Position numbers and translations under genes: made by a program. From Clostridiaceae bacterium (lineage in GTDB: Bacteria > Bacillota > Clostridia > Saccharofermentanales > DTU023), in the NCBI GenBank assembly GCA_012799825.1, contig JAAZKK010000091.1:1-40007 (forward strand): 40,007 nucleotides of DNA, given 5' to 3'. Of the stretch, positions 15,224 through 34,600 are shown piece after piece (positions within the stretch are counted from its first letter, which is position 1; each line of letters begins with the position of its first letter). A model generated the notes under the pieces. The model was not told the DNA's origin. It saw only the letters and a list, made by a program, of their open reading frames with translations, and searched no databases.

Positions 15224-16303
15224 TCATGACTCCGGAGTCTCAAAATCATATACAACGGGACGGTCTTTAAAGAGCCAGCATGCCACAGTATGTTTGTTTC
15301 CTAAATCAAATTCAGATGGCCTTTTCACATCACAAAGTCCACTGATCATCTGATCGCAGCGCGGGTGAAAACGACAGCCTGCAGGCGGCGCGACTAAGCT
15401 GGGAGGTTCTCCGGCAGGCACCTCTTGAAACTCGTCGACATTCTTTGGGTCGGGGTCTGATGTCGCCGCCAACAGAGCGTGCGAATAAGGGTGCGCCGTT
15501 TCATTGATCAACTGTGATTCAGGAGCTTTCTCGATCACTTGACCGGCATACATAACGTAAATGAATTCTGAAAAATAACGAACGGTGGCAAGGTCATGAG
15601 TGATGTAAATAACCGCTAAGTTGTGCTCTTCCTGCAGGGTGCGCAAGAGCTTTAAAATTTCGACGCGGACAGAAGCATCAAGCATGGATACAGGTTCATC
15701 CGCCACTAAAAGAATAGGGTTCAAAATCATCGCCCTTGCAATAACAACGCGTTGTTGCTGGCCACCACTCAGCTGATGAGGGAACTTCTTCAGAAAATCT
15801 TCAACAGGCGTCAAACGCACTTCCTCAAGAGCTTGCCGTACTCGTTCATAGCGTTCGTTTCGATCCTTGACACCGTTAATTTTTAGCGGTTCCTCTATGA
15901 TCGTCTGAACATCCATGAAGGGCGCCAGCGCGCCATAGGGGTCCTGCTGAACAAATCCGATTTTGCGTCGAAGATTCTTGAGGTCATTCGACTTTAAATC
16001 ATTGATGATTTCGCCGTCGAAAGTAATGGTGCCTCCTGTAGGCGTGTTGATTCTTAGAATTGTCTTCATTAAGCTCGTCTTGCCGCAGCCCGACTCGCCT
16101 ACAATAGCAATCGTCTCGCCGCGCCTCAGCTTCAAATCAACACCGTCAACAGCTCGAACGAAACCGGCGTGTTGAATACCGCGTTTACGAAGTTCAAAGT
16201 AAACTTTAAGGTTTTCAATGATCAGGATGAAATTATCCTCTTCACCATCATCTACAGATAGATCAGGATTTTTTACAGCTACGTTCTTGATGTATTCTGT
16301 CAT
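15224..16303 (-). CDS. Peptide-type ABC transporter ATP-binding protein (OppF/DppF-like)
   Basis: This is the second ATPase of the peptide importer, 359 residues. It carries Walker A GESGCGKTS (69-77), signature LSGGQQQRVVIARA (178-191), Walker B LLVADEPVSMLD (198-209) and switch His in IYITHDLATVRYF. The C-terminal oligopeptide-transporter domain contains PPAGCRFHPRCDQMISGLC and a final ACW, giving four cysteines. In some DppD/OppD-type proteins this cysteine set binds an iron-sulfur cluster. Its ATG overlaps the end of the upstream ATPase gene (ATGA). It is the last gene of the operon. Confidence 0.95.
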   Translation of the reverse strand: MTEYIKNVAVKNPDLSVDDGEEDNFILIIENLKVYFELRKRGIQHAGFVRAVDGVDLKLRRGETIAIVGESGCGKTSLMKTILRINTPTGGTITFDGEIINDLKSNDLKNLRRKIGFVQQDPYGALAPFMDVQTIIEEPLKINGVKDRNERYERVRQALEEVRLTPVEDFLKKFPHQLSGGQQQRVVIARAMILNPILLVADEPVSMLDASVRVEILKLLRTLQEEHNLAVIYITHDLATVRYFSEFIYVMYAGQVIEKAPESQLINETAHPYSHALLAATSDPDPKNVDEFQEVPAGEPPSLVAPPAGCRFHPRCDQMISGLCDVKRPSEFDLGNKHTVACWLFKDRPVVYDFETPES

Positions 16304-17379
16304 GATTCTTCACTTTTCCCTTCATAAAGCCAGCATTTAACACAGTCTTCGCCAAAGTTGTAAACAGGCGGTTCTTCATCACACTTCCCGAAGCGGTGAT
16401 CGCAGCGATCCTTGAATCTACAGCCCGACGGCGGATTAATAAGGGAGGGCGGTGCGCCATCGATGAATTCCGGCTCCTCGCGTTCACGAAGTCGGGGAAC
16501 ACTTGCCATGAGTTTTCTCGAATAAGGATGGCGTGGCTTACTGAAGAATCGATGCGACTCACAAACCTCCACAATCTGACCGGCATACATAACAGCCACA
16601 ATATCCGCCAGTTCTGAAGAAGTCGAAATATCGTGCGTAATGAGAATAAAGCTGGTGTCTAGATTAGCCTTAATTCGCTTCAACAAGTTAAAAATATTTG
16701 CCTGTGTTAAGACATCCAACGCTGATGTAGGTTCATCCAAGATGACCAAGTCCGGACCTGTAATAAGAGACATGGCAATGGCCACACGTTGACGCATTCC
16801 ACCTGATAATTCAAATGGGTAACGCATGAGGAAGTCGACCGGCACACCGACATTATTAAACATCAAAGCCGCCTGTTGTATAGCTTCGTCTTTCTTCATA
16901 CCAAAGTGGACCATCATGGGTTCAGCCACTTGGTCACCGACTCTCAGAACAGGATTGAGGGAATTCATCGCCGCCTGAGGAACCATTGACATCTTGACCC
17001 AGCGAATTTGAGTGCGGTACTCCTCCTCGTTCAGCGCCATGGTGTCGACATCATGCAGTAACACCTCTCCCGAATAGTGAGCGACATTTCTCGGCAGCAA
17101 GCGGAGGATTGCCTTCGCCAAAGAGCTTTTGCCACAGCCTGACTCACCGACGACGACGACAGCTTTATTAGTTACCAAATCAAAGTTGACGCCATCGACT
17201 GCCTGAACCGGGCCTCTGATCGTTTCAAAATGAAGCTTTAAATCCCTAATGCTCAAGAGCAGTTCATGACTCACGTCACCTACTTTGTGCGTCGTATCAG
17301 TCATACGACTCATCAATAACGCTTTTTGCTTGGCGGCCTCGATCGCATCTACATTTGTGTATGTTTTTTCTTTTGCCAT
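16300..17379 (-). CDS. Peptide-type ABC transporter ATP-binding protein (OppD/DppD-like)
   Basis: This is the first ATPase of the peptide importer, 359 residues. A polar extension of about 40 residues precedes the ATPase domain. Walker A GESGCGKSS is at 78-86; the signature LSGGMRQRVAIA and Walker B LVILDEPTSALD follow. The C-terminal cysteine motif (GCRFKDRCDHRFGKC, then CVKCWL) matches the other subunit. The start is one nt after the stop of the permease gene, with GAGAGGA as ribosome site. It acts with the downstream ATPase as a heterodimer. Confidence 0.95.
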   Translation of the reverse strand: MAKEKTYTNVDAIEAAKQKALLMSRMTDTTHKVGDVSHELLLSIRDLKLHFETIRGPVQAVDGVNFDLVTNKAVVVVGESGCGKSSLAKAILRLLPRNVAHYSGEVLLHDVDTMALNEEEYRTQIRWVKMSMVPQAAMNSLNPVLRVGDQVAEPMMVHFGMKKDEAIQQAALMFNNVGVPVDFLMRYPFELSGGMRQRVAIAMSLITGPDLVILDEPTSALDVLTQANIFNLLKRIKANLDTSFILITHDISTSSELADIVAVMYAGQIVEVCESHRFFSKPRHPYSRKLMASVPRLREREEPEFIDGAPPSLINPPSGCRFKDRCDHRFGKCDEEPPVYNFGEDCVKCWLYEGKSEES

Positions 17380-17380
17380 C

Positions 17381-18748
17381 TTACATTCCTCTCAGTCTCG
17401 GATTAAAGATTCTATCAAGCGCAAAGCCCAAAAGCGCGAACCCGAAACCGGTAATCATCAAGAATACAGCCGGCTCCAGAATCCAGTAATACATGCCTTG
17501 GTATTGTGCACCAAACGTTCGGGCATCGTTGATGACTTTGCCCCACGTTGGGATCGAAGGATCACCGAGACCCAACAAGGCAAGCGATGCTTCCAAGAAG
17601 ACGTAAGAAGGAACAGCCGACACTAGACTGGGGATAATCATAGGTATGACGCGCGGGATCATATAACGTGTGACAATACGTAAATCACTTGCTCCATACG
17701 CGATCGCAGCCTCGATGTAAGTCGACTCTTTAACCTGTAAGAAAATAGCTCTTTGTGACTTGACCGACGCTGAAAACATGTTCAGAATGATCGTCACCAA
17801 CAACAATGTCCAAATACTTCGGGAATAGAACGTACCAACCATGATAAGGACGGCAAAGTACGGTATGACCATGTTGACTTCGGTAATTCTTTGAATCAGT
17901 TCGTCAAGCCAACCGCCGAACCACGTTCCTATGGCAGAGATAAACATCGTAATGATCGCAGATCCCAAAGCTGCAGTCAGCCCGAACGCAAGCGCGATCG
18001 GTGCACCCCACATCATCGCGACCTTTAAATCACGACGCAAATGGTCAGTACCGAAGAAACCGAAGACTTTTCCGTGCATGATCAACTCGACGTCGACATC
18101 GGATCCTTCTTCAAAAGTGGTCGCTTGAATCGTAAGTTTATACGTTCCCTTATCTATTTCAAAAGGATCTGATCCAAGCTTGCTAAGGAGGCCTTCCATT
18201 GCCGTAGAAGGTTCATTACCTTTATGCAAACGCTTCAGACGCGTTCGCAATTTCTCATCCTGTTCAAAGCGATAATTTTGATTTTTCGAGATACCCAAGT
18301 CAGCAATTTTTATATCTTCACCGGATGGTGTCTGTAAGGTCATCGAAACAAATGGATTCTTCGATTGGTAATCTGTAGTGAAGTACAAGAAAAAATCCTG
18401 CGGAAGCTCGTTGTAGTCATAATCAAATGAATAAACAAATTCGATGGAACTGCCGCCGGAAGCGCGCGGTTCTGACACCTTAGTAAAATCATCGTCCTCA
18501 CCGGCTACGACATCGACAGAAACAGGCAACTTGTCCTTGCGGAACCAGTTGACCCAAGTCGGTCTCGCATTTTTCGGGTTCTTATAGACAATGTCCTCAC
18601 TCGCCCGCCACATTTTAATTGCCTCATTATATGGAATCTTCCACATGGTGTAAAAAGAGAAAACAAAGAGAGCAATTACGATGATCATTCCGATGATGGC
18701 AGATGGGTATCTGGCAACATCTCTAAAAGAGTCCTTTAGTCGCTTCAT
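17381..18748 (-). CDS. Peptide-type ABC permease (DppC-like) with large extracytoplasmic insert
   Basis: The 455-residue product is about 150 longer than usual DppC proteins. One N-terminal helix (about 17-35) is followed by about 190 residues without membrane segments (about 36-225). That stretch includes YNEAIKMWRASEDIVYKNP and a beta-rich part, and is predicted to lie outside the cell. Then comes the canonical five-helix permease domain, with the coupling motif EAAIAYGASDLRIVTRY and a final LDRIFNPRLRGM. The insert could contact the binding protein. I recall similar insert-bearing permeases beside peptide-binding proteins in Thermococcales. The start is 4 nt after the DppB-like stop. Confidence 0.92.
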   Translation of the reverse strand: MKRLKDSFRDVARYPSAIIGMIIVIALFVFSFYTMWKIPYNEAIKMWRASEDIVYKNPKNARPTWVNWFRKDKLPVSVDVVAGEDDDFTKVSEPRASGGSSIEFVYSFDYDYNELPQDFFLYFTTDYQSKNPFVSMTLQTPSGEDIKIADLGISKNQNYRFEQDEKLRTRLKRLHKGNEPSTAMEGLLSKLGSDPFEIDKGTYKLTIQATTFEEGSDVDVELIMHGKVFGFFGTDHLRRDLKVAMMWGAPIALAFGLTAALGSAIITMFISAIGTWFGGWLDELIQRITEVNMVIPYFAVLIMVGTFYSRSIWTLLLVTIILNMFSASVKSQRAIFLQVKESTYIEAAIAYGASDLRIVTRYMIPRVIPMIIPSLVSAVPSYVFLEASLALLGLGDPSIPTWGKVINDARTFGAQYQGMYYWILEPAVFLMITGFGFALLGFALDRIFNPRLRGM

Positions 18749-18752
18749 ATGC

Positions 18753-19886
18753 TTACTTGCTCCCCCCTAATTTAACTCTGGGATCCACGATGGCATACAA
18801 GAAGTCTAATAGGAATACCGTAATACCAAGTAGGTAAGCCTGAATGATCGTAGTTCCAACGATAACAGCCGTGTCATATCGGCTGACTGCCTGATAAATG
18901 ATTGTCCCCAGCCCCGGCCAAAGGAATACCGTCTCCGTTAAAGTTGCTCCGGTCCAGATGCCGACTAACATGAGTGCAAAACTCGTGATAATGCTAGGCA
19001 TCGTGGGGCGTAGGATATAGCGCCTCTCAATGGCGCGTGAGCTCAATCCCTTAGCCTTAGCCATATCAACATAATCCTCGCTGGAGTATATGAGAAAAAA
19101 AGTTCTCCAAGAGTACGTATTGATCATGAAACTCGAAATGAAAAGCGAGAAAGCCGGTAAAATCATATGTTTTAAGACACTCAAGAAATATCCTATCTTC
19201 GTGGGAGGTGGCGGCGCGTCGACCATGCCGCCAAAAGGCAGGATCTTCAACCATGCAGCAAAGAAGAGTATCAAGAAAATTCCGTAAAACCACGGTGGAA
19301 TAGATGAAGTCGGCGACAGCGCAACGATGAGCTTGTCCCAAAAACTTCCATAATGGCGCGAAACAGCTAACGCCAAAAACAACGATACAACAAACAAAAG
19401 TAGCTGAGATGTTCCCATCAACAGCAGTGTCGCAGGTAATCGTTCCAAAATAATATTTCGCACGTAACGAGAGCCATGATCGCTGATCATGAATCTAGCA
19501 CGTCCAAAATTGAGTGTTAGAGCATTCTTTAAGTGTGTCAAAGATCTGCGGACAAAGGGTTGATCGAGACCAGCAAGCTTCTCGCGTTCTTGGATCCCCC
19601 TCTCAATGAGTTCCCTTCGAACGTCCTCTGTCATATAGGATTTGGCTGCTATTGCAGCAACCTCCATGGTCACTTCTTCTCGAATAGATGATTTCAAAAT
19701 GACATCGACGTATCCACCCATGTTTGCAACAATAATGGTGATATAGACGCCGACGACGATCGTGATCATCAGCAATATAAGCCGTCTAAAGAAGAATCGA
19801 ATTAGCCTCTTCGCCGTCGCACGCGACGCCTGTTTGCTATATTCGACCGTTGACTCTAAGGTTATATTTTTTTTTTCAGTTGCCAT
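18753..19886 (-). CDS. Peptide-type ABC permease (DppB-like)
   Basis: This is the partner membrane subunit, 377 residues. An N-terminal basic tail precedes helix 1 (about 26-52). A polar extracytoplasmic region to about 150 contains NALTLNFGRARFM. Five further helices follow. The ATPase-coupling motif DYVDMAKAKGLSSRAIERRY is at about 260-280, and the end is FLYAIVDPRVKLG, as in DppB. AGAGG suits ATG 19886 (8 nt) rather than the in-frame GTG at 19892. It is followed after 4 nt by the DppC-like gene. Confidence 0.94.
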   Translation of the reverse strand: MATEKKNITLESTVEYSKQASRATAKRLIRFFFRRLILLMITIVVGVYITIIVANMGGYVDVILKSSIREEVTMEVAAIAAKSYMTEDVRRELIERGIQEREKLAGLDQPFVRRSLTHLKNALTLNFGRARFMISDHGSRYVRNIILERLPATLLLMGTSQLLLFVVSLFLALAVSRHYGSFWDKLIVALSPTSSIPPWFYGIFLILFFAAWLKILPFGGMVDAPPPPTKIGYFLSVLKHMILPAFSLFISSFMINTYSWRTFFLIYSSEDYVDMAKAKGLSSRAIERRYILRPTMPSIITSFALMLVGIWTGATLTETVFLWPGLGTIIYQAVSRYDTAVIVGTTIIQAYLLGITVFLLDFLYAIVDPRVKLGGSK

Positions 19887-19913
19887 ACGCACAACCTCTT
19901 ACATATCCTAAGA

Positions 19914-19971: not shown

Positions 19972-22557
19972 CTACTTGTTTGCAATGAACTCTACCGATT
20001 GGAAAGTAGGCTGTGCGACGACGTGTGGAACAACCGCGACTTCAATCTTGGCCGCACCGTCACCGAACTTGTTGGTGTCATCAGCTGTCAATTTGATCTC
20101 ATATTTACCATCTTCAACAGCTTCTGCTTCACTAATCATTACAACTTCGTTCTCGGCATTGTATGCGAGGAATTTAACTTTGTTGATGTCGTCAAGCTTG
20201 TAAGGTTCGCCATTGAATGTAACATATACTTCGAACACAGCTTCTTCGCCGACATTAATCTGACCGGGACCTTCGATATCAACATCGGCGATCAAGGGCT
20301 CAGAATAACGATCCCAGCGATCGGCAGGATCCGGATAGTCTGCGAAGTACGCCATGACAAGTGACTTACCGTTCAAATCAACCGACTTGAGGAAGTACGG
20401 ACCCGTACCTTGCCAGTAGTTGCCGTAAGCATCGAAGTAAGCTTTGAGTGCTTTGTAGCGCTCAACCGCCTCTTCCTTGGTGATGTACTCGCCAAGAGTC
20501 GCCTCGTAAGGAATGGTTCCGTCTTCAATCAGTTTGTCAAGGTGCTTGCCTAGAATCTCAAGGCTCGGACCACCAATCAAGCTCAACTGCTCAACATCTT
20601 TGTCTTGAGCTTTGGCCTCGCTGTAAGCAAGTTCTGTAGCAGCTTCGGCTGAATTCATCATTGCAAATTGCGAGAACGAACTCTGACCCTGGAATTGGTT
20701 AATCCAAAGTGAGCCGGCTCCAGCGGCCGTGAGCTCGGCATCTTGATAGACTTGATCTGAATAGCCCTCAATGGTCAAAGGATCTGTGGAGACGATTTTG
20801 AGACCACGGAAACTACTCATGAAACTTGTAAAGCCTGGGATGGCCTGTTCATCGTAGATTGCAGACTCTTCTTTGGCGCGATCAAAGCTCATAATGAAAG
20901 ACATGATGAGGTCAGCCATTGAGAGATCGCTGCCATCGTGCCATTTCACGACATCAAAGATATCATCTCTAAAAGTGACGACGGACTTAACTTTCGCTGT
21001 CACCTCTGCGCCTTCACTCTTTTCACCGGACGTAATGAATTTTTGCTCTTCAGCATCCCAGTCTGCCCAAGCATCCTCAGGAACGACAATTTTGTCTTCA
21101 AATTTGAGGTCTACCCAATCCAACGTTTTCTTGATAGTTGTACCTGTCAAGACGGTAAGTTCTGCTTTTTCCGCGAAGAAAGGATGAACCAAACCGGTGT
21201 ACGGATCATATATGAAGTCATAGGAGACGGTCATGCGAGCAGAGCCCTGGTCACTCGTCGTGTTCGAACCCTGAATGGGATTCCAAGGACCGCTGAATAG
21301 GAACGGTTGGGTTGCCCAGCGCATTGTTCCACCTTCTTGATCCGCATAACGGAGCGTAAAGGGCGTGATTTGAGCAGATTCAATTCCGGCAGCGAGGTCG
21401 GTTGTCGCAACGACGCCTTTTTTGTGCGGTATGAATTCCTTGCTGTCAATCAGAAATACTTGGAAAGAGTCTTGCAGACACAACTCGAGTGCACGAGCCA
21501 TCATGTCGTGACGCTCGTCCAGATCCTCATAGTCTTTGTTGTAGAGACGGTCACCAAGATCTTGGAACTCAGGATCAGACACGTTCGCTAGGAATACAGG
21601 AATTCCCTGTTGAGATGTGTTCAGGTACATTTCTTGGAAAATATTGGACTCGTCGCGGCTCAGGACTGAGGCGCCCCAACCGCCGGTGTACATATGCCAT
21701 TCTCCATCCTTGGGATCTCCATTGATCCAAATCGGGCCGAGGTCAGCACCTGCACCTACTTGACGGACAACCGTAAAGCCAATTTTTTCCATCTGGTCTG
21801 AGATGTAGTCACCCATTTGTTTACGCACATCATCACGAATCAGGAACGTAACCTCAAGGGGCTTGCCATCTTTTTCAAACTTGCCATCTACGAGTTCGTA
21901 TCCTTCTTTTGCCACTTCTTCACGAATGATCTCTGCAGCCTTATCGAAATCGTAAGCATACTCTGTCTCAAGCCGACGGCAAACGTCCGCCAAGTCAGCG
22001 TAATCACCAAAGTTAGTCATGATGGGGAACCACTTCGACAACACGCCACCTGCGAAGTACTCTTGATTGATGTAATTGCGGTCAACCAAGTAGTTAAAAG
22101 CTTCGCGGATCTTGCGATTGCGGAACGGGTTATACTCCCCTGATTTGAACTCGGCCGGGTTGAACTGAATAGAATAATACGTGCCGTTTGCAGTGGCGTA
22201 ATCGAGGCCGGAACTTTGTAATTCAGCCAATTTATCCGGATTGAAGCCATTTACGTAGATGTCAATCGCATCAGCATTCAACTGTGCAATGACTGCCGAT
22301 TGATCAATGACCGACACGACAATTTCGTCTAGCCAACCGCCCTTACGGGGATCCTTAACTTCAGGTTCAGTCGGTTTAGGATCCGTTGGTTTAGGATCCG
22401 TTGGTTTAGGATCCGTTGGTTTAGGATCAGCTTCTTTGCTCTCCGAGGGAGCTGGGTCAGTCGGTTTAGCAGGCTCAGTCGGTTTACACGCCGTAAACAG
22501 CAACGCCAGCACCATGACCAAGGAGAACAAAATCAATGTAAATCGTTTACGTTTCAT
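19972..22557 (-). CDS. Peptide-binding lipoprotein with circularly permuted family-5 fold and C-terminal Ig-like domain
   Basis: The 861-residue product has a lipoprotein signal peptide with lipobox LFTAC (Cys24), then a Pro-Thr-Asp-Pro-Lys repeat linker to about 70. Residues 75-400 hold elements normally found in the second half of family-5 binding proteins (GGWLDEIVVSVIDQSAVI, NRKIREAFNYLVDRNYI, MGDYISDQMEKIGFTV). Residues 409-755 hold the normal first half (GGTMRWATQPFLF, TFRDDIFDVVKWHDGS, GTGPYFLKS). About 757-861 is an Ig-like beta-sandwich (INVGEEAVFEVYVTFNGEPY). Usual members have 500-600 residues. The ribosome site AAGGAGGG is 6 nt from the ATG. It likely binds peptides for the four downstream subunits, but the ligand is unproven. 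Confidence 0.92.
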   Translation of the reverse strand: MKRKRFTLILFSLVMVLALLFTACKPTEPAKPTDPAPSESKEADPKPTDPKPTDPKPTDPKPTEPEVKDPRKGGWLDEIVVSVIDQSAVIAQLNADAIDIYVNGFNPDKLAELQSSGLDYATANGTYYSIQFNPAEFKSGEYNPFRNRKIREAFNYLVDRNYINQEYFAGGVLSKWFPIMTNFGDYADLADVCRRLETEYAYDFDKAAEIIREEVAKEGYELVDGKFEKDGKPLEVTFLIRDDVRKQMGDYISDQMEKIGFTVVRQVGAGADLGPIWINGDPKDGEWHMYTGGWGASVLSRDESNIFQEMYLNTSQQGIPVFLANVSDPEFQDLGDRLYNKDYEDLDERHDMMARALELCLQDSFQVFLIDSKEFIPHKKGVVATTDLAAGIESAQITPFTLRYADQEGGTMRWATQPFLFSGPWNPIQGSNTTSDQGSARMTVSYDFIYDPYTGLVHPFFAEKAELTVLTGTTIKKTLDWVDLKFEDKIVVPEDAWADWDAEEQKFITSGEKSEGAEVTAKVKSVVTFRDDIFDVVKWHDGSDLSMADLIMSFIMSFDRAKEESAIYDEQAIPGFTSFMSSFRGLKIVSTDPLTIEGYSDQVYQDAELTAAGAGSLWINQFQGQSSFSQFAMMNSAEAATELAYSEAKAQDKDVEQLSLIGGPSLEILGKHLDKLIEDGTIPYEATLGEYITKEEAVERYKALKAYFDAYGNYWQGTGPYFLKSVDLNGKSLVMAYFADYPDPADRWDRYSEPLIADVDIEGPGQINVGEEAVFEVYVTFNGEPYKLDDINKVKFLAYNAENEVVMISEAEAVEDGKYEIKLTADDTNKFGDGAAKIEVAVVPHVVAQPTFQSVEFIANK
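22364..22423. repeat. 15-bp in-frame tandem repeat in the lipoprotein linker
   Basis: Four 15-bp units start at 22364, 22379, 22394 and 22409. The last three are identical (GGATCCGTTGGTTTA on the plus strand). They encode the KPTDP linker repeat of the binding lipoprotein on the minus strand. The linker spaces the folded domain from the membrane lipid, and its copy number is likely variable between strains. Confidence 0.9.
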
Positions 22558-22744: not shown

Positions 22745-23035
22745 GCTGACGACACTAGACATAGTGCATAAATTTGCGTGCGTAAATACTTACTCTCATG
22801 AACTGTATTTATGACGCTACTGCAGCCTCTGAGATCAATTAATATACTGCCTTCTACGCTTCTAAGTCATGAAATCCCAACCTACATGAATTTCCCAATC
22901 TGATTAGGTATATCACTTTGCTTTTGCCTTGGGAAGTTATCAGCAGAAACATAATTGCAAAATTATGCTATGTGTATACATGGAGCAGTGATGAAATCTT
23001 TCACTAGATGCTACTCCCCCTGTATTATGTCAGTG

Positions 23036-23072
23036 TGACAATCGTCGTGACAATCGTCGTACATGCATGTAC
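23036..23072. promoter_or_regulatory. Candidate operator: 12-bp direct repeat abutting a 14-bp palindrome
   Basis: TGACAATCGTCG is repeated exactly at 23036 and 23048. It runs straight into GTACATGCATGTAC (23059-23072), a perfect palindrome. The site is about 215 nt upstream of the XRE regulator and about 290 nt upstream of the divergent peptide-transporter promoter. It is a plausible regulator site for either, by inference only. Confidence 0.4.
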
Positions 23073-23286
23073 ATTTTGGATAACGATTAATGCGCTTCAT
23101 GCACTCAGAGAAATTATGCGAAACCTCGTTTGCGAAATCAAAGAAGACCAAACTATAGTAATGGTATGGTACTTAAAATTGGTTTTTGTCACGGAGAGTA
23201 ACAATGATGATACTTGCAGTGCATTGTCAAGAGAAATCCTCTATCTAAAACTAAAGTCAATATCTAACCTGCTGGAGGTAAAGAAC

Positions 23287-23877
23287 ATGACATTAGGAGA
23301 AAAAATTAAAGAAGCAAGAAAACAGTGCGGACTGACGCAGGAGCAACTTGCGGAGAAGATGACACTGTCGAGATCTGCCATTGCAAAATGGGAATCAGAC
23401 AAGGGACTTCCCGACGTAGACAATCTAAAAGCGTTAGCCCAACTCTTGAACGTGAGCGTCGATTACCTGCTCGATGACGGAGAGACCGTAGCGGAACATG
23501 TAATACGTGAAGCGTATAATTTGTCTGATTACGGAAAAGGATCAAAGAAAAAGAAAAAAGATCGTCTAGTCCTCGAAAAATTCCCGAACGCGACCATTCA
23601 TCCTCTGATTGGAAATCTCAAATTAACAAAAGCTGAAAAAGTAATGGACAACATGATCGGTTTTTTAACCGATGCTCCCTTTGGTATCCCGTCTGTAATC
23701 AACAGTTTAAAAAACACAGATAAAGAATTTTACTTAGTGGAAAAAGAAAATAGGCAGTTTTTTGTCATCGTCACAGATGAATTTATTGAAACACGTCAGC
23801 TTGCAAAGCATATCACAGATAAAAAATTTGAAATTGGAAACTGGAAATTTATAAAGTGTTCATACGAAGTAAAATGA
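23287..23877 (+). CDS. XRE-family transcriptional regulator
   Basis: The 196-residue product has an N-terminal helix-turn-helix of the Cro/CI type (about 4-60). It begins MTLGEKIKEARKQCGLTQEQ, with the recognition region LSRSAIAKWESDKGLPD. The C-terminal 120 residues are a soluble domain I do not recognise, starting with a Lys-rich stretch (KGSKKKKKDR). The frame is open back to 23008, but GGAGG 6 nt before ATG 23287 and the domain boundary show the real start. It is transcribed away from the peptide-transporter operon and might control it or itself; no target is proven. Confidence 0.88.
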   Translation: MTLGEKIKEARKQCGLTQEQLAEKMTLSRSAIAKWESDKGLPDVDNLKALAQLLNVSVDYLLDDGETVAEHVIREAYNLSDYGKGSKKKKKDRLVLEKFPNATIHPLIGNLKLTKAEKVMDNMIGFLTDAPFGIPSVINSLKNTDKEFYLVEKENRQFFVIVTDEFIETRQLAKHITDKKFEIGNWKFIKCSYEVK

Positions 23878-25601: not shown

Positions 25602-28600
25602 ATGAAAATAAGAACAAAGAAGTTTTTTGTCCTGTTGCTGACAATCTTGTTGATGTGGCAGGTTTTGCCTTTCCAAGTAATGGCGGAACCACCGGAGATC
25701 ATCGTTTCCGATCCCGTTAACCTTCAAGGTAATCTTGGTAACGGCGTTCGAGGCGGCGCGAAAGCAGTGTACCATACCGTTCATTTTAAGAAACATAATG
25801 GCGACGACTTAGAAACCGTCAATAACGTTCTTGACGGTACAAAACTAAGTGAAATCGCACCGGAGGCGCCTGTTCGTGAAGGCTACACTTTTGTGCAGTG
25901 GTCGCCGCCGGAAACGTACATCACCGGCGAAACAGCGTCAACTTTCGAATTCATCGCCCAGTACCGCTCCACCAACCTGTATGAACTGAACATCAAGTAC
26001 GAGTATGAAAACGGCTCTCCTGCCGCCCTCTCATACATGGCCACCTATGCGTACGGTGAAACATATAGTGTGGATTCACCGGAAATAGTAGGTTTTGAGG
26101 TTGATATTGCAAACATTTCCGGCACCGCCGGCACCACCCAGGGCGGCGCCACCGAGTTAAATTACACCGTTACCTATACGGCAAGCACCGGTACCCCTTA
26201 TAGAGTGGAACATTATAAACAGAACATCTATGACGATGAATATACCATAGTCGGAACTGATACCCAGACGTTAAATGCTACCACCGGTGCTACGGTGACG
26301 GTCAACAGCAAGGACTACACAGGATTTATCGCTCAAACACCTACACAAGAAGCAACCATCGCTCCGGACGGCAGCACAGTCGTCAAGATGTATTACGACC
26401 GCATTAGCTATATTCTCACCTTCGACACAGCGGGCGGAACCTTCATTGCGCCCTTCCAAGGACGCTATGACGCCGCCATTCCCCCTGTAGCAGATCCTAC
26501 CCGTACCGGCTACACCTTTGCTGGCTGGTCTACCACTATCCCCGACAAGCTTACCGAAAGTCAGACCATCACGGCGCAGTGGACGCCACTCACCAATGTA
26601 CACTATACCTTGGTCTACTGGATTGAAAACGCTGACCCGATCCCCGGCACCAATACATACGAGTACTCTTATCACAGCTCTGCGAACCGCACGGGTACGG
26701 CAGGTAACATATACACCATCGCAGCAACTGATAAAATTGGGATCAATCACTTCACTTACAGCCACTATGATACCGGCCAAACGATTGCCGGTGATGGCAG
26801 TACCGTCATCAATATCTATTACACCCGTAAATCTTATACAGTTGAGTTCAATTTAGATAGATCAAACGCAACGATGACCATCGGCGGAGTTACTTATTAT
26901 TACAATTCCGGACCCCGATATTCTTTTACAGCTAAATATGAATCCGACATTAGCAACTTGTGGCCGACGGCAGAGCATATTCCGCCAGTCCCAGCCTTGA
27001 TTGGTCGTGATTGGAAATTTTACGGCTGGCGCATAGGCTACGCAGGCACAACTTGGATATCGAAACAAACCGTACTAAACGATGAGCTCATTAATCCCAA
27101 TGGAACAAGAACATTTAACGCGAGATGGAGTCGAGGTGTATCTCCCTTTTATCTGCATTATATGTTTGAAAGCCTAGACGGCACCGGCTCACCCTACAAC
27201 GGCATCAACTACAAGGAGGATGCAGCATTAAGCGGGGTGGTAAACTCAGCTGCTACCAGCGGCGACTGGATTGCTAAGCCTATCCCTGGATTGACAAGTG
27301 CGGGCGTGGTAGAAGAGCCAAATCCCGATCCAAACGGCAACTACAACGTCTATTTTTACTACACCAGAAATCCTTACACATTGGACTTCTATAGCCATGG
27401 GCAGGTCGTTCCGGGAAGCGCCAAGACCGTTAAATATGGTGACACCATTGAGATGTACAATTTTACTCCGGAGATCCCTGCCGATTTACCGGATCATTCT
27501 TTCGGCGGATGGTACACCACAGCAGACTGTACGCCGGGTACGGAGTTCGTGTGGTCAGGCGCTACAATGCCCGCTCACAATCTGCGCTTGTTCGCCAAAT
27601 GGAGCCCGCCAATATATTACGTATACTTTAACTACACAAAGCCTGACGGCACTGTCGCGCAACTTGACGTGCAACAAGTCCCGCAAGGGCAGAAAGCCGA
27701 CCGTCCGGCAGACCCTGCAGCTATTCCCGGCTATGACTTTGACGGCTGGTATTACGCAGGCACTTCAACGAAGTACTCCTTTGACGCTCAGGTGTTTTCG
27801 ACGCTGAATCTCACCGGACGATATCTGCCGAAAAACGACCGCTCTTATACGGTTCACTATCTCCGTGCTGCAGACGATACTGAATTATTTGATTCAAAAA
27901 CGGTAACCGGACAAACGACCGGCTCAACCGTCACCGAGCAAGCTGTAGAAGTTTCAGGTTACTTGCCTGACGCACTAAGCAAGACGATTACGTTAGGTGC
28001 GGAAAATAACCTCATCACATTCTACTACGGCACGCTCAACGTGGACTATACGGTTCGCTACGTAGAACGCGATACCGGCACCGAACTCCTTCCTCCGGTC
28101 ACCAAAAACAGTGTAGGCCATGCCGTGGTGACCGAAACGGCTCCTGTCATCACCAACAAACCCTATCAAATGCCCGATAACAGCTGGGTTATTGTGGACT
28201 TCACACCGGATAGGCCTCAAAAATCCCTCACACTGACGTCTAATCCCGAGTTGAACGTTATCACTTTCTACTACGAGTACGTTATCAAGAACCATTATGA
28301 GGTGCGCTACCTGGAAATAGACACCGATCCCGCAGTTGTTTTGTCGGAACCGAAACATGTCATCACTGCTAAAAACGAAGTAGTTGAGCTGGCTAAATCG
28401 ATCACAAACTATCGTCCGCATAGTGTGGTAAGTACCTATCCGGATCTTGAAAGGAGCAGTAGCGCTAACTATATCTCTACAGGTCTGGAGGTCAGTGATC
28501 CTGTAAATCAGCCCCCGCAGGTGATCACTTTTTACTATATGCCTGAACGCATCGAGATCACCGGAACTAAGACTTGGGTAGATGCAGGTATTTCTGCTCC

Positions 28601-31600
28601 GGATGAGAGGCCGCAATCCTTGTCGCTCACTCTTTACGCTAACGACGTCGCCCTCTCGCCACAACCCGTGCCGAATTGGACGGATAATGGCAACAACACT
28701 TGGACTTACCGATACATCAACTTGCCCGCTGCAGTAGGTGGAATAACGCAAATCTACACCGTAAGGGAGACTGTTCCCGACAACTATATTGCCAACTATA
28801 CTGATGTCAATCTAAACGATCATGGCGGCACCAACATTATCAACACCCTAGATGGTGGCACCACCACTTTCTCCGGTACAAAAACGTGGGTCGCAGAGCC
28901 TGACTCATTCGGATTTGCCCCCCGACCGACCGATTTGGAATTGACTTTCTACCGTCAAGGTATAAACGACACCGGCTGGGTAAAAATGAACCCGCAGCCT
29001 GAGTATGATTGGAACAAAAACGCAAGTGAAGACACTTGGACGTACACTGCCAACGGTTTGAAGAAGTATGAAAACGGCCATCTTATAGAATACAAGGCAG
29101 AAGAAACGGTACCACTCGGCTACGAACAAATCTTAGATAACGGTCAAGATTTCACAAACGAAATCATCTACACAACAGCTACAGTAACGTGGGTCAACGG
29201 TCCTGAAACCCGCCCCACCATTTGGTTAAAGATATACCAACAGGTAGGAGAGAACGGCACCCCCGAACAGGTCACCTACACCGGATTGAAAGAACTTGAT
29301 AGCAGCACAACTGAAGTGACATGGCGCGGCTTGTACGATAAAGATGAATACGGCAATCCCTACATTTTCACGGTGCGCGAAGTAGATGCCGAAGGCAATG
29401 ACTGGACACCGGATAATTACACCAAAGTAGAAAACGGCCTAAACGTAACCAACACCTACGTCATCCCTACCAATGGCAAAGCCACCGCCACCAAGACATG
29501 GGTCAACGGCGCCGCCACACATCCTGATCTGTGGCTACAGCTGTGGCGTAAAACTACTACCGGTACTCCCTTGATAGATCAACCCGTACCCAATCGTGAC
29601 CCCGTCAAAGTCGCCTCGACCGGCGATTTCTCCCACGAGTGGACCGGTCTTGAAACGACCGACATCAATGGTAATGCTTACACATTCTACGTCAAAGAGG
29701 GCCAGTTGAACGGCTCCACCTTCACCGAAGGTGTTCCGGAATACTATCAGCTAACTGAAGGAGAAGGCACTCTCAATCTGACGAATACTTACGAGATACC
29801 CACTAATGGCAGTTTCGAAGCCACTAAAGTTTGGGTGAACGGCACCGAGGTAACGAAGCCTGCCGTATGGTTCCAGTTGCAACGCCGGGTTAGCGGCACC
29901 GAGACTTGGGAACCTGTGCCGAATGTTGCGCCGTTACAGGTGCCGGCTGGTGCCCCTTACACCGTCAATTGGACCGACTTAGAAGAAACAGACTCCGCCG
30001 CACAGCCCTACGAATTTGGTGTGGTGGAAGGCACCTATGCAGCCGGCATCTTCACACCTGGAAGCCCTGATCCCTTTGTGCTTACCGGCGGCGAATACAC
30101 AAATGAGATCACCAATACCTATGTCTCCCCTAAGCGGGAAGACATTACCGTAACCAAGGTCTTTGCTACCACTTGCCCCGGAGCTACGGCGCCTGTAACC
30201 GCCGTCACCTTAGAACTGTTGCGTGAGTCCGCCGCTGTGGCGCCCCACAAAGTTGGTGAAGTCACCCTGGACGGCAACATTGATTCTGTTGAGTTCTACC
30301 CTTGGAAGGCGAAGTTCACTGACTTGGACGCCAAAGACATATACGGCAACGATTACATCTACAAAGTTAATGAACTCAATGTCCCTGCCAATTATGAAGA
30401 CACCTACGATCAAAATACCTTTACCGTCACCAACACTTGGCAGACCATATCCTTCACCGCTAAAAAGGCATGGTCGGGCGGCTACTCCACTATGGATAGG
30501 CCACCTGTAACATTCCAGCTGCAGCGAAAAGTTGGTACGGCAGATCCCGAAAACGTTGGCGCTCCGGTCGTGCTTGACGGCGTCATTGACGATAGTTCCA
30601 GCGACGGCTCAGGCGAGCTTGCACTTTGGACTTATACATGGACATTCCTGCCTAAAAATGACAGCAACAATCAGCCTTACGTCTATTCCGTGGTTGAAAC
30701 TCCCCTGATCGGCTATAGACCCTCCGGTCCGAATGCAGGGGATGCTGTTCCCACCATTACCAACACGTACGAACATGTACACATCGACGCTCAGAAGGTC
30801 ATTAAATATCCCGATGGTATTCCGACTGATCTAGATGGACTCTATTTTGAGTTTGTACTGCAGCGAAAAACGGAGAATATGACATCTTGGGAAACTGTAG
30901 GAGAACCTGCAAAACTGGACGGCTCTGCCGATGGAGTTGACGAAGAGAATGAATCCGGTGAGCGCTCACCTGAGCTCAATCCTCCCTCAAACCAGCTCAT
31001 TTGGAACTATAACTGGAAATACCTTCCAAAGATAGATGCTGATGGACTCGAATATACCTATACAGTGATTGAACCCACTCTGCCCAAAGGCTACGTGCGG
31101 GATAGCATTGAAGGCGATATGAATAATCGCTTTGTCGTTACCAATACTTTCCGCAGCGATATTTTCCGCGCCTTCAAATATTGGGACACGAAGACGGGCA
31201 CGGAGCCGGTAATATTCCGCTTAGAACAGGCAACAGTGGACAGCGATAATTGGATTGACATGGGGGAAGATTATCGCATCGAGCTAAACGGTATAGACGA
31301 CGATGCGGAGAACTATCCTAATGGTCATGCCTACTACGAGGATTCTCCATGGCGCGCTGTATGGATCGGACTTCCTACGCAGAACAATGAAAACGTGTCT
31401 TTCAAATATCGCGTACAGGAAACTCCCCCTGCCAATTACGAAATAGATGCTACATCCAGCGCTTCCACAGCCATCACCAACGTTTCGCTTAAGACCGACA
31501 TTACGGCAACTAAATTGTGGGTAAACGGCGAAACTGTCAGGCCGGACGAAGTTACATTAAGCCTTAGCCGTTATTTTGAGGGTGGAGTAATAAAAGATAA

Positions 31601-34600
31601 TGGCTATGTGCCTCCGCAAGATCGCATCCTCACGGCGCCTTCAGGTGGCGGTGACGATTGGGGAACACATACTTGGAGTGGTGAAGATCGTTTTTATGAC
31701 GATCAGGGCGTGAGAAAAGAGTATGTCTATAAAGTCGAGGCGTCGTATACGCCGCTTAATCCAGACACTCACGGCAGCTTCACATCCGAATGTGAAGTGA
31801 TAGATGGTGTCGACGGTACCCACCACACTATCACCAGTACGTATACGCAGCCTTTCATTGATCTGAAGGCTGCTAAAGTATGGGATGGCGGCGATGTAGA
31901 TAATCGTCCTGCAATTACCATCCGCCTTTGGCGCAGGTATAAAGTCGAGCCAGGTCAACCTGAGCACGAATGGGCACACGCTAATCCTGCTGCCCCCGGA
32001 CATACTCTGGACGGACAAAAGGATCCGGGAATAAACCCGGTGACTAGGGCACAAGAATATGCACCTTGGAAGATGAAGGGGTTAGCTCCCTTAAGAGACA
32101 AACAAGGTAATCTTTTCGAATACAAAATTACAGAAACAGCGACAGTGCCGGGTTTTGAGAATCCAACCTATTTACCCGATCAATTCGTATTCGATGAAGA
32201 AAATGGTGATGAACTTATCCACTTTGTCGTGACCAACAAATACAAAATCCCGACCACCGGCGAGGCGACGGCCACAAAAGTATTTGATGGCGGTAAAAAT
32301 GCGGCTAAACCTGAAATATGGTTCCAGCTATGGAGGAAAACTTCGGACGGTACTGTAGATCAAGCTGTTCCCGGTGTAGACCCGATCAAGATCACCGAAG
32401 CGAGTAATATCACCGCAGAAGGTAACTACGCTTATACATTCCGCAACCTTGAAACCACGAACTTCGACGCCAAACCCTACACTTTCTATGTGAAGGAAGG
32501 CAACTATGACGAAGTTGCTACGACTTTTACGGAAGCCACGATCTTCGATAATTTCACCTTCCTTTCAGGTGCGGGAACCCTGACTCTGATCAACAAATAT
32601 GCTTCACCCACAACAGCAACGGCCAGCGCAACCAAGACTTGGGTGAACGGCCCATCCGCCAACCAAACGGACGTTGTTCTTACGTTGTACCGTAAGACCT
32701 CTACAGGCATAGATGAAGAAGTGCTGGGACCTGATCAGGGAACTTTGGTGAAGGGTGGCGAAGCTCCTGAGTTTACCTATACTTGGGAAGGATTGAAAAA
32801 CACCGATCCAGACGGCAATCCTTACACCTACTATGTGAGAGAACCGAATGTTACCGATGGCAGAATAACCGTCGACGGGTCTAGTTACATCGTCAATCAC
32901 GTAGATAACGCCGGTAATAACTCCACCGCCATTACAAACGCCTACGACCCGCCTGCAGACGCTGCATTCACCGCTACCAAAACGTGGGAAGGCGGACCAG
33001 GCACAAACAAAACAGCCGTAGCACTTGATCTGTACCGCCATAGCATCAATGTGACGACGGAACTGGTTACAGGGGTCACCCCTCAAATCACCGGTGAATC
33101 GCCCACATACACTTACACATGGGAAAATCTGATCTCACGGGACAACAAAGGTGTGCTATACACCTTTACCGTGAAGGAACGGGATGAGGATGCAGACAAT
33201 AATGTAACCATTAATGGCAGTGTCTACAAAGTGACCTATGACACCGATAAAAAGAACGTCACCAACACGTACCAGATACCTAAGGATAAGAATGTTACCG
33301 CCACTAAAACATGGAAGAACGGTTCGAACGTCAGACCGGGTATCTGGTTCAAGCTGCAGCGCCGCACACCCGGAGGCATTTGGCAGGATGTTCCCGGAAC
33401 CAATGCCGAACATGTTCCCGCAGAACTTTCCGTCACTTGGACAGGTCAAGAACGCACTAATTTTAACGGGATTGAGTGGGAATACTCCGTCATTGAGGGA
33501 AAGCTGGTAGAAAATGCATTCAACGAATGGACACCTGATAATTTCACGCTTTCAGGACAGGGTACCCTTAACCTAACAAACACCTACACCATCCCAACCG
33601 ATACTGTCGTCGCCAAAAAGGAATGGGAAAATGGCCCTTCCACAAAACCAACCGTGTGGTTCAAACTGCAACGCGCTATTCCCGGCGGTGAACCGGCGGA
33701 TATCCCTTCCGGAGAAGCAGGCAGCGCTATTTTGAGACTGTTGCCCGGCGTATTGAGCGTCCAATGGGAAAATGTCAAACAGACGGATATTAACGGCAAA
33801 GCCTATACGTTCAGCATTGTAGAAGGTATAGTGAACGAAGCTACTCAGGAATTTACCGCCGGTCTCCCGGCAAGCTACGAATATACTCCAACCCCGATGA
33901 CCGGTTCGCTTGGTGTCGTAAACACGTACACCTGTCCCACCGGCAGCAAAACCACAAAGAAGATCTGGGCTGGCGACGGGCCTCAGCCCTATCCGGAGGT
34001 ATGGCTGCGTCTGGAACGCACGATCAGCCCCACTGCGCAGTTTGAGGTAGTCCCCAATACATTAACTAAGGTGAACATGCCAGAGGACAGCACCGAGAGC
34101 GATCCGATCACTTGGAATAACGTCGCACTGAAGGATCATAACGGCGTGCCCTACGTGTTCCGTGTGATGGAATGCGTATACGATGAAGAAAACAATACCT
34201 TTAATGCCGGTGCTCCCGCCAACTATGTGAGCGACGCCGGACAATATGATTTTGGCGAGGGTCTTCAACAAATCACTAACACTTGGCAGACTTTTGATTT
34301 GTCAGCCGAGATCATCTGGGACGGCGCGCCGGCGGAGGCTTACGGCCTGCCCGCCAAGACTTCGACGTTGTCCCTTTATCGGTGGGATGAAGGCGGCTCC
34401 CGACCCGATGAGCCGTTGGGTTCCGTTCCCCTGACGGGCAACGACGTGAATGTACCGGCACCGGAATTCGGCGGACGTGTTATAACCAATGGCTGGAGAG
34501 TCACAGTGGCTGACCTGCCCAAGAACAACCCTGTTAACGGCAAACCCTACGTCTATTCGGTGGAGCAAACCGGCTATTCGGCCATTTATACGGCAACATC

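Follow-up and report, generated by a model that had tools for sequence, protein, structure and literature searches.

A putative peptide-importer lipoprotein of a Clostridiaceae bacterium appears to be a circularly permuted member of the OppA-type binding proteins

SBP_bac_5 proteins are among the commonest nutrient receptors of bacteria and are usually annotated with collinear models. The open reading frame at positions 19972-22557 (minus strand, 861 aa) of the window, i.e., the 40,007-nucleotide stretch of Clostridiaceae DNA analysed here, raises the question of what is encoded by a gene in which the motifs of such a protein come in the wrong order. A sequence-only reading of this locus had proposed a circularly permuted SBP_bac_5 lipoprotein with an appended Ig-like domain. 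The motifs of both halves indeed lie where that reading had placed them, with those of the ancestral C-terminal half (LDEIVVSVI at residues 76-84 and NRKIREAFNYLVDRNYI at 147-163) ahead of those of the ancestral N-terminal half (GGTMRWA at 409-415, VKWHDGS at 537-543, and GTGPYFL at 717-723).

From its start, the protein carries a signal peptide with a lipobox (LFTA-C24; residues 1-24, positions 22486-22557) that was assigned from the sequence and forms a helix at residues 3-22 in the predicted structure. The lipobox cysteine ends the motif LFTAC at residues 20-24, recognised by eye and by pattern, and marks a putative lipoprotein with predicted lipidation and anchoring. A Pro/Thr/Lys-rich linker with PKPTD repeats follows (residues 25-70, 22348-22485; pLDDT <50 at 24-45 and 47-50) and leads into the ancestral C-terminal half, now first (residues 71-407, 21337-22347; delimited by Pfam and by superposition on the crystal structure 7fi3), and the ancestral N-terminal half, now second (residues 408-752, 20302-21336; delimited by 7fi3 superposition and phmmer). 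The remainder (residues 753-861, 19975-20301) bears out the proposed Ig-like domain, which in structure comparisons of the model resembles macroglobulin, PKD, and filamin folds at Z scores of about 10 to 11.5. All these features lie on the minus strand.

Sequence comparisons recover both halves of a cluster C (OppA-type) binding protein in swapped order. The Pfam profile SBP_bac_5 (PF00496) scores 100.6 bits over the whole protein, above its gathering cut-off of 32.4, with residues 75-303 matching profile positions 147-355. When all PDB chains are searched with phmmer, the best match of the 861-aa protein is OppA of T. kodakarensis (7fi3), with query residues 535-742 on chain positions 103-307 (i-E 6e-5) and query residues 141-298 on chain positions 401-570 (i-E 6.8e-15). 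The swap recurs, at E 1.1e-69, when 7fi3 is compared with L020, a permuted homologue encoded in a different Bacillota genome: residues 504-841 of L020 fall on chain positions 6-319 and residues 153-430 on 331-606. An AlphaFold model of the whole protein forms one confident fold (pLDDT 92.5, pTM 0.86), and the fragment 408-861, predicted separately, reaches a pLDDT of 94.6. Residues 69-407 superpose on 7fi3 334-755 (Z 25.9, 333 aa, 2.6 Å) and residues 410-752 on 7fi3 34-346 (Z 30.8, 298 aa, 2.3 Å; both VIA-align), so that the structural case consists of two complementary one-way superpositions by sequential aligners, of which the N-half one uses the separately predicted fragment. Because each half of a single canonical chain is found once in the two segments, and the later half comes first, the 861-aa protein represents a circular permutation. 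A collinear full-length SBP_bac_5 match in ordinary order was looked for and not seen in this ORF, in which the C-half precedes the N-half motifs, and neither were two complete tandem binding proteins. At the level of sequence and predicted structure, we regard it as confirmed that the ORF encodes a single, circularly permuted SBP_bac_5 protein of cluster C. The new termini were created by a cut after the segment following GTGPYFL and before the strand LDEIVV, and a short linker near residue 407 now bridges the old N- and C-termini.

T. kodakarensis OppA falls inside the same clade on trees and both of its halves superpose, but it differs in its canonical N-to-C order and its aligned chain (34-755) lacks the C-terminal Ig-like domain. 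The sequence-only reading had likened the swapped order to that of Thermococcales peptide-transporter binding proteins, and this protein, as the sole Thermococcales sequence compared, lends that parallel no support. AppA, OppA, DppA, and NikA (SBP_bac_5/cluster C) likewise share the fold, the Pfam family of both halves, and the operon type, whereas the 861-aa protein has swapped halves, the Ig-like domain, and about 330 to 350 residues more than a typical member of ~500 aa.

The binding-protein gene is the first of a five-gene Opp-type importer operon on the minus strand. It is followed by permease B (OppB/DppB type with BPD_transp_1, 379 aa, 18753-19892), permease C (OppC type, 455 aa, 17381-18748), ATPase D (OppD type, 16300-17379), and ATPase F (OppF type, 15224-16303), all assigned by Pfam and synteny and the last two each with ABC_tran and oligo_HPY domains. 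The two permeases and two oligo_HPY ATPases typical of an Opp/Dpp importer are co-located, and among the 80 loci fetched, most of those whose sequence is long enough to tell keep this gene order. OppABCDF importers share this set of one binding protein, a pair of permeases, and a pair of oligo_HPY-tailed ATPases, but differ from the operon of the window, where permease C has an insert of ~180 aa and matches to Opp4B and Opp4C are far below cut-off. NCBIfam gave solely such far-below-cut-off matches, with permease B being Opp4B-like and Opp4C also among the matches of the operon.

We consider it highly probable that the protein is a permuted OppA/DppA-type lipoprotein receptor of a peptide importer whose gene was transferred from Chloroflexota. 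With its lipoprotein signal and disordered tether ahead of the old C-half and the Ig-like domain after the old N-half, it would work as an ordinary Venus-flytrap receptor that clasps an extracellular oligopeptide with its lobes and hands it to the pair of permeases B and C, powered by the two Opp-type ATPases. Peptide is our guess for the substrate because 7fi3, the closest solved relative, was according to its title crystallised with an endogenous pentapeptide and because the permeases and ATPases are Opp-type; substrate and transport are thus both predicted by analogy. It is possible yet doubtful that the permuted receptor binds an oligosaccharide, a metal chelate, or an opine instead of a peptide. 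Nickel chelates, cellobiose, and mannan or chitin oligosaccharides are also ligands of cluster C proteins that share the fold, and NikZ, TM1223, and cellobiose- or chitin-binding folds align nearly as well to the C-half, but the closest solved relative by both sequence and structure (7fi3) binds a peptide and the ATPases carry oligo_HPY domains, which are also present in sugar-type Opp relatives. No hint at the substrate was found among the genes flanking the operon.

The insert of permease C (residues ~46-226, 18071-18613, minus strand; recognised from the late TM core) is predicted to be extracytoplasmic and separates the first TM segment from the TM core. Across the operons compared, permease C is usually ~440-490 aa long. 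Where the binding protein belongs to family A1, A2, or A3, all cut at site A (the cut sites are compared below), the TM core of permease C begins within residues 216-283, as against 59-118 in L267, L269, L271, L052, L085, and L096, whose binding proteins are canonical; most sampled canonical systems lack the ~180-aa insert. Late starts are found elsewhere too, at 166 in the canonical system L275, at 201 in the site-B system L274, and at 368 in L040, a non-family permease of 596 aa from a system whose binding protein is unresolved; these three cases rule out that the insert is exclusive to permuted systems. It may serve as a docking element for the site-A permuted protein, and here, as for the Ig-like domain, we infer a role rather than observe one. 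If the link between site A and the permease insert is true, it would offer a testable case of co-evolution between receptor topology and transporter. One could alternatively picture a domain-swapped or obligately multimeric assembly in place of a monomeric flytrap, given that the new termini are placed where packing could change and that the insert of permease C might point to an unusual docking partner. This seems improbable to us in view of the confident monomer model with both halves packed and of the precedent of Treponema pallidum TpMglB-2 (Tp0684), a naturally circularly permuted cluster B sugar-binding protein that keeps its bilobed fold (PMC4990184).

The permuted receptor belongs to a sizeable family. 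An initial search across 299 Bacillota genomes yielded ~12 permuted relatives at 36-44% identity, and a scan of GTDB contigs returned as the 80 closest loci nearly exclusively Chloroflexota (Anaerolineae), with a few Bacillota and one Candidatus Acetothermia as the remainder. Strong matches are found in ~20 of 251 sampled Chloroflexota genomes, while 61 of 100 Bipolaricaulota genomes match the divergent-branch query L020 and the full-length ORFs fetched from them are permuted. Judged from these sequences, the family is mainly found in Chloroflexota (Anaerolineae) and also in Bacillota and Bipolaricaulota. The swapped order is kept across >100 non-redundant diverged relatives, and the Ig-like domain is present in 103 of 106 non-redundant full members (missing in L015, L016, and L017). 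A lipobox-like motif was detected by pattern in 81 of these 106, some of the others being cut by contig ends. The family is far larger than the sequence-only reading had implied, and permutation is recurrent in SBP_bac_5.

Two further explanations concern the swapped order itself. The halves might stem from two different binding proteins and need not form one receptor: a deletion between tandem binding-protein genes would give exactly this C-then-N product, and such tandem genes exist (L054, as well as canonical genes beside permuted ones in several loci). We consider this decidedly unlikely for the present protein and possible as an origin mechanism, since trees of the N-half and of the C-half put the family with the same relatives, the model is one confident fold (pTM 0.86), and the order is kept in >100 diverged members. 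That misassembly or faulty gene calling put contigs or genes together in the wrong order is hardly conceivable even though the source genome is fragmented (129 contigs) and most relatives are MAGs, because the same order recurs in independent assemblies of three phyla including the isolate Anaerolinea thermolimosa (L042), a breadth that refutes an assembly artefact.

How may the permuted receptor have arisen? Circular permutations are classically produced by tandem duplication, fusion, and trimming of both ends, and the founding event of this family may have followed the same route. The plausibility of this route is supported by L054 (L054:3203-12851), which carries tandem permuted copies, i.e., two full ORFs that are 69% identical and a third that is truncated where the contig stops; in a stop-to-stop reading, the last two copies share a frame and are set apart by one stop codon. 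Several Chloroflexota loci (including L041, L042, L045, L052, L061, L096, L104, L109, and L114) contain a canonical SBP_bac_5 gene (~600-710 aa) just upstream of the permuted one, and the sequence of its product is not close to that of the permuted neighbour.

The family would have spread mainly in Chloroflexota before reaching the Clostridiaceae lineage. In a tree of 92 members, the protein of the window and four proteins from Clostridiaceae MAGs form one clade (support 100) that is nested successively in Anaerolineaceae with an SH-aLRT of 100 at each of several nodes. Because the Clostridiaceae copies nest inside Anaerolineaceae, transfer from Chloroflexota is likely, as judged from a tree that relies on MAGs with possible binning errors but in which several independent MAGs agree. 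Transfer into a Clostridiaceae-like anaerobe had also been suspected from the sequence, and the nearest tree neighbours of these copies are Anaerolineaceae (Chloroflexota) and not archaea. A search of plasmids gave solely weak matches, to the C-half and in rhizobia, and a search of phages for the permuted protein gave no matches.

Permutation within SBP_bac_5 extends beyond this family. We surveyed the order of the halves with an HMM built from 24 SBP_bac_5 proteins of canonical order; as a control, canonical proteins in the same run gave collinear matches. Group A3 proteins (L205-L207), which occur in three out of five genomes from a single Bacillota class, match profile positions ~218-516 and then ~41-225. 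They have the site-A cut, are short (~570-600 aa), and lack the Ig domain (e.g., L205:263-2008), and the permease C adjoining L207 also has a long insert. Group B comprises two proteins from two Anaerolineae genomes that are 70% identical (L227, also labelled L144, of Anaerolinea thermolimosa, G299:C1:3367422-3369158; L228, G777:C44:21033-22730) and match profile positions 293-526 and then 39-291, with canonical cousins at 40-47% identity. Group C comprises 14 Anaerolineae loci among L243-L258 (L243-L246, L248-L254, and L256-L258) that match ~146-520 and then ~41-143, i.e., are cut at profile position ~144, and have canonical Bacillota homologues at ~55-65% identity. Group B' (L247:1134-2927 and L255:1273-3303) is cut at ~293 and nested within group C on the tree. 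In L243 (L243:3-2492), an SBP_bac_3 domain (residues 65-298, E 8.8e-38) is fused ahead of the permuted SBP_bac_5 part.

All 16 of the fetched Anaerolineae loci with a junction-spanning match are permuted, and at least roughly 40 of 150 Anaerolineae genomes have such a match. When 299 Bacillota genomes were searched with the site-C junction query, none of the matches listed crosses the junction; they are separate pieces in canonical order, as in G150 with query 209-312 at 3212768-3213079 and then query 1-205 at 3213629-3214240 (58-64% identity). On a tree of 78 rows of de-permuted sequences (one quick-method tree with long branches, built from a chosen sample), B and C branch off separately from among canonical proteins, B' emerges within C, and site A stands apart. 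This tree needs five changes between permuted and canonical order and seven between all states, which implies that the order of SBP_bac_5 proteins would have changed at least four times.

Canonical TkOppA (7fi3) is placed inside the permuted group A2 in the full, N-half, and C-half trees, where A1 and A2 are groups defined once the first tree had been seen and branches are long. A clade of A1 and A2 without TkOppA is rejected on the full (AU p 0.008) and C-half (p 0.02) alignments, but not on the N-half data (p 0.146), and a single origin of A1, A2, and A3 with TkOppA inside is likewise not rejected (p 0.233). The position of TkOppA could reflect a return to canonical order or parallel permutations. 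We tentatively propose that permutation is recurrent in OppA-type proteins, with at least three cut sites (profile ~144, 220-230, and 292), at least four order changes, renewed permutation of an already permuted protein (L247 and L255), a possible reversion in TkOppA, and a coupling of site A to the permease C insert that may involve docking.

The permuted SBP_bac_5 family is apparently undescribed. A literature search, with most subscription journals outside its reach, found no published account of SBP_bac_5 proteins in permuted order. TpMglB-2 comes nearest as a precedent, being likewise a natural circular permutation of a bilobed ABC-importer binding protein but of another class (cluster B/type I), with another cut, a sugar ligand, and no Ig-like domain (PMC4990184). 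A large permuted family is probably mis-modelled or half-annotated. These natural permutants, some with canonical cousins at ~55-65% identity, form a set for studying the origin of permutations, folding, and lobe closure, and for asking whether permutation moves the membrane tether or the docking to the permease.

Two other genes of the window deserve mention. An XRE-family regulator (HTH_3 by Pfam; 23008-23877, plus strand) is divergent from the operon. The corresponding neighbourhood of two Clostridiaceae MAGs contains homologues at 90-92% identity, and that of a third Clostridiaceae relative contains a weak one at 38% (the three loci are L036, L037, and L074); none was seen near the operon in Chloroflexota loci. 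Further along the same strand, an ORF of 3951 aa (25602-37457) with 10 or more Cna_B domains as well as Listeria-Bacteroides repeats probably encodes a giant surface adhesin.
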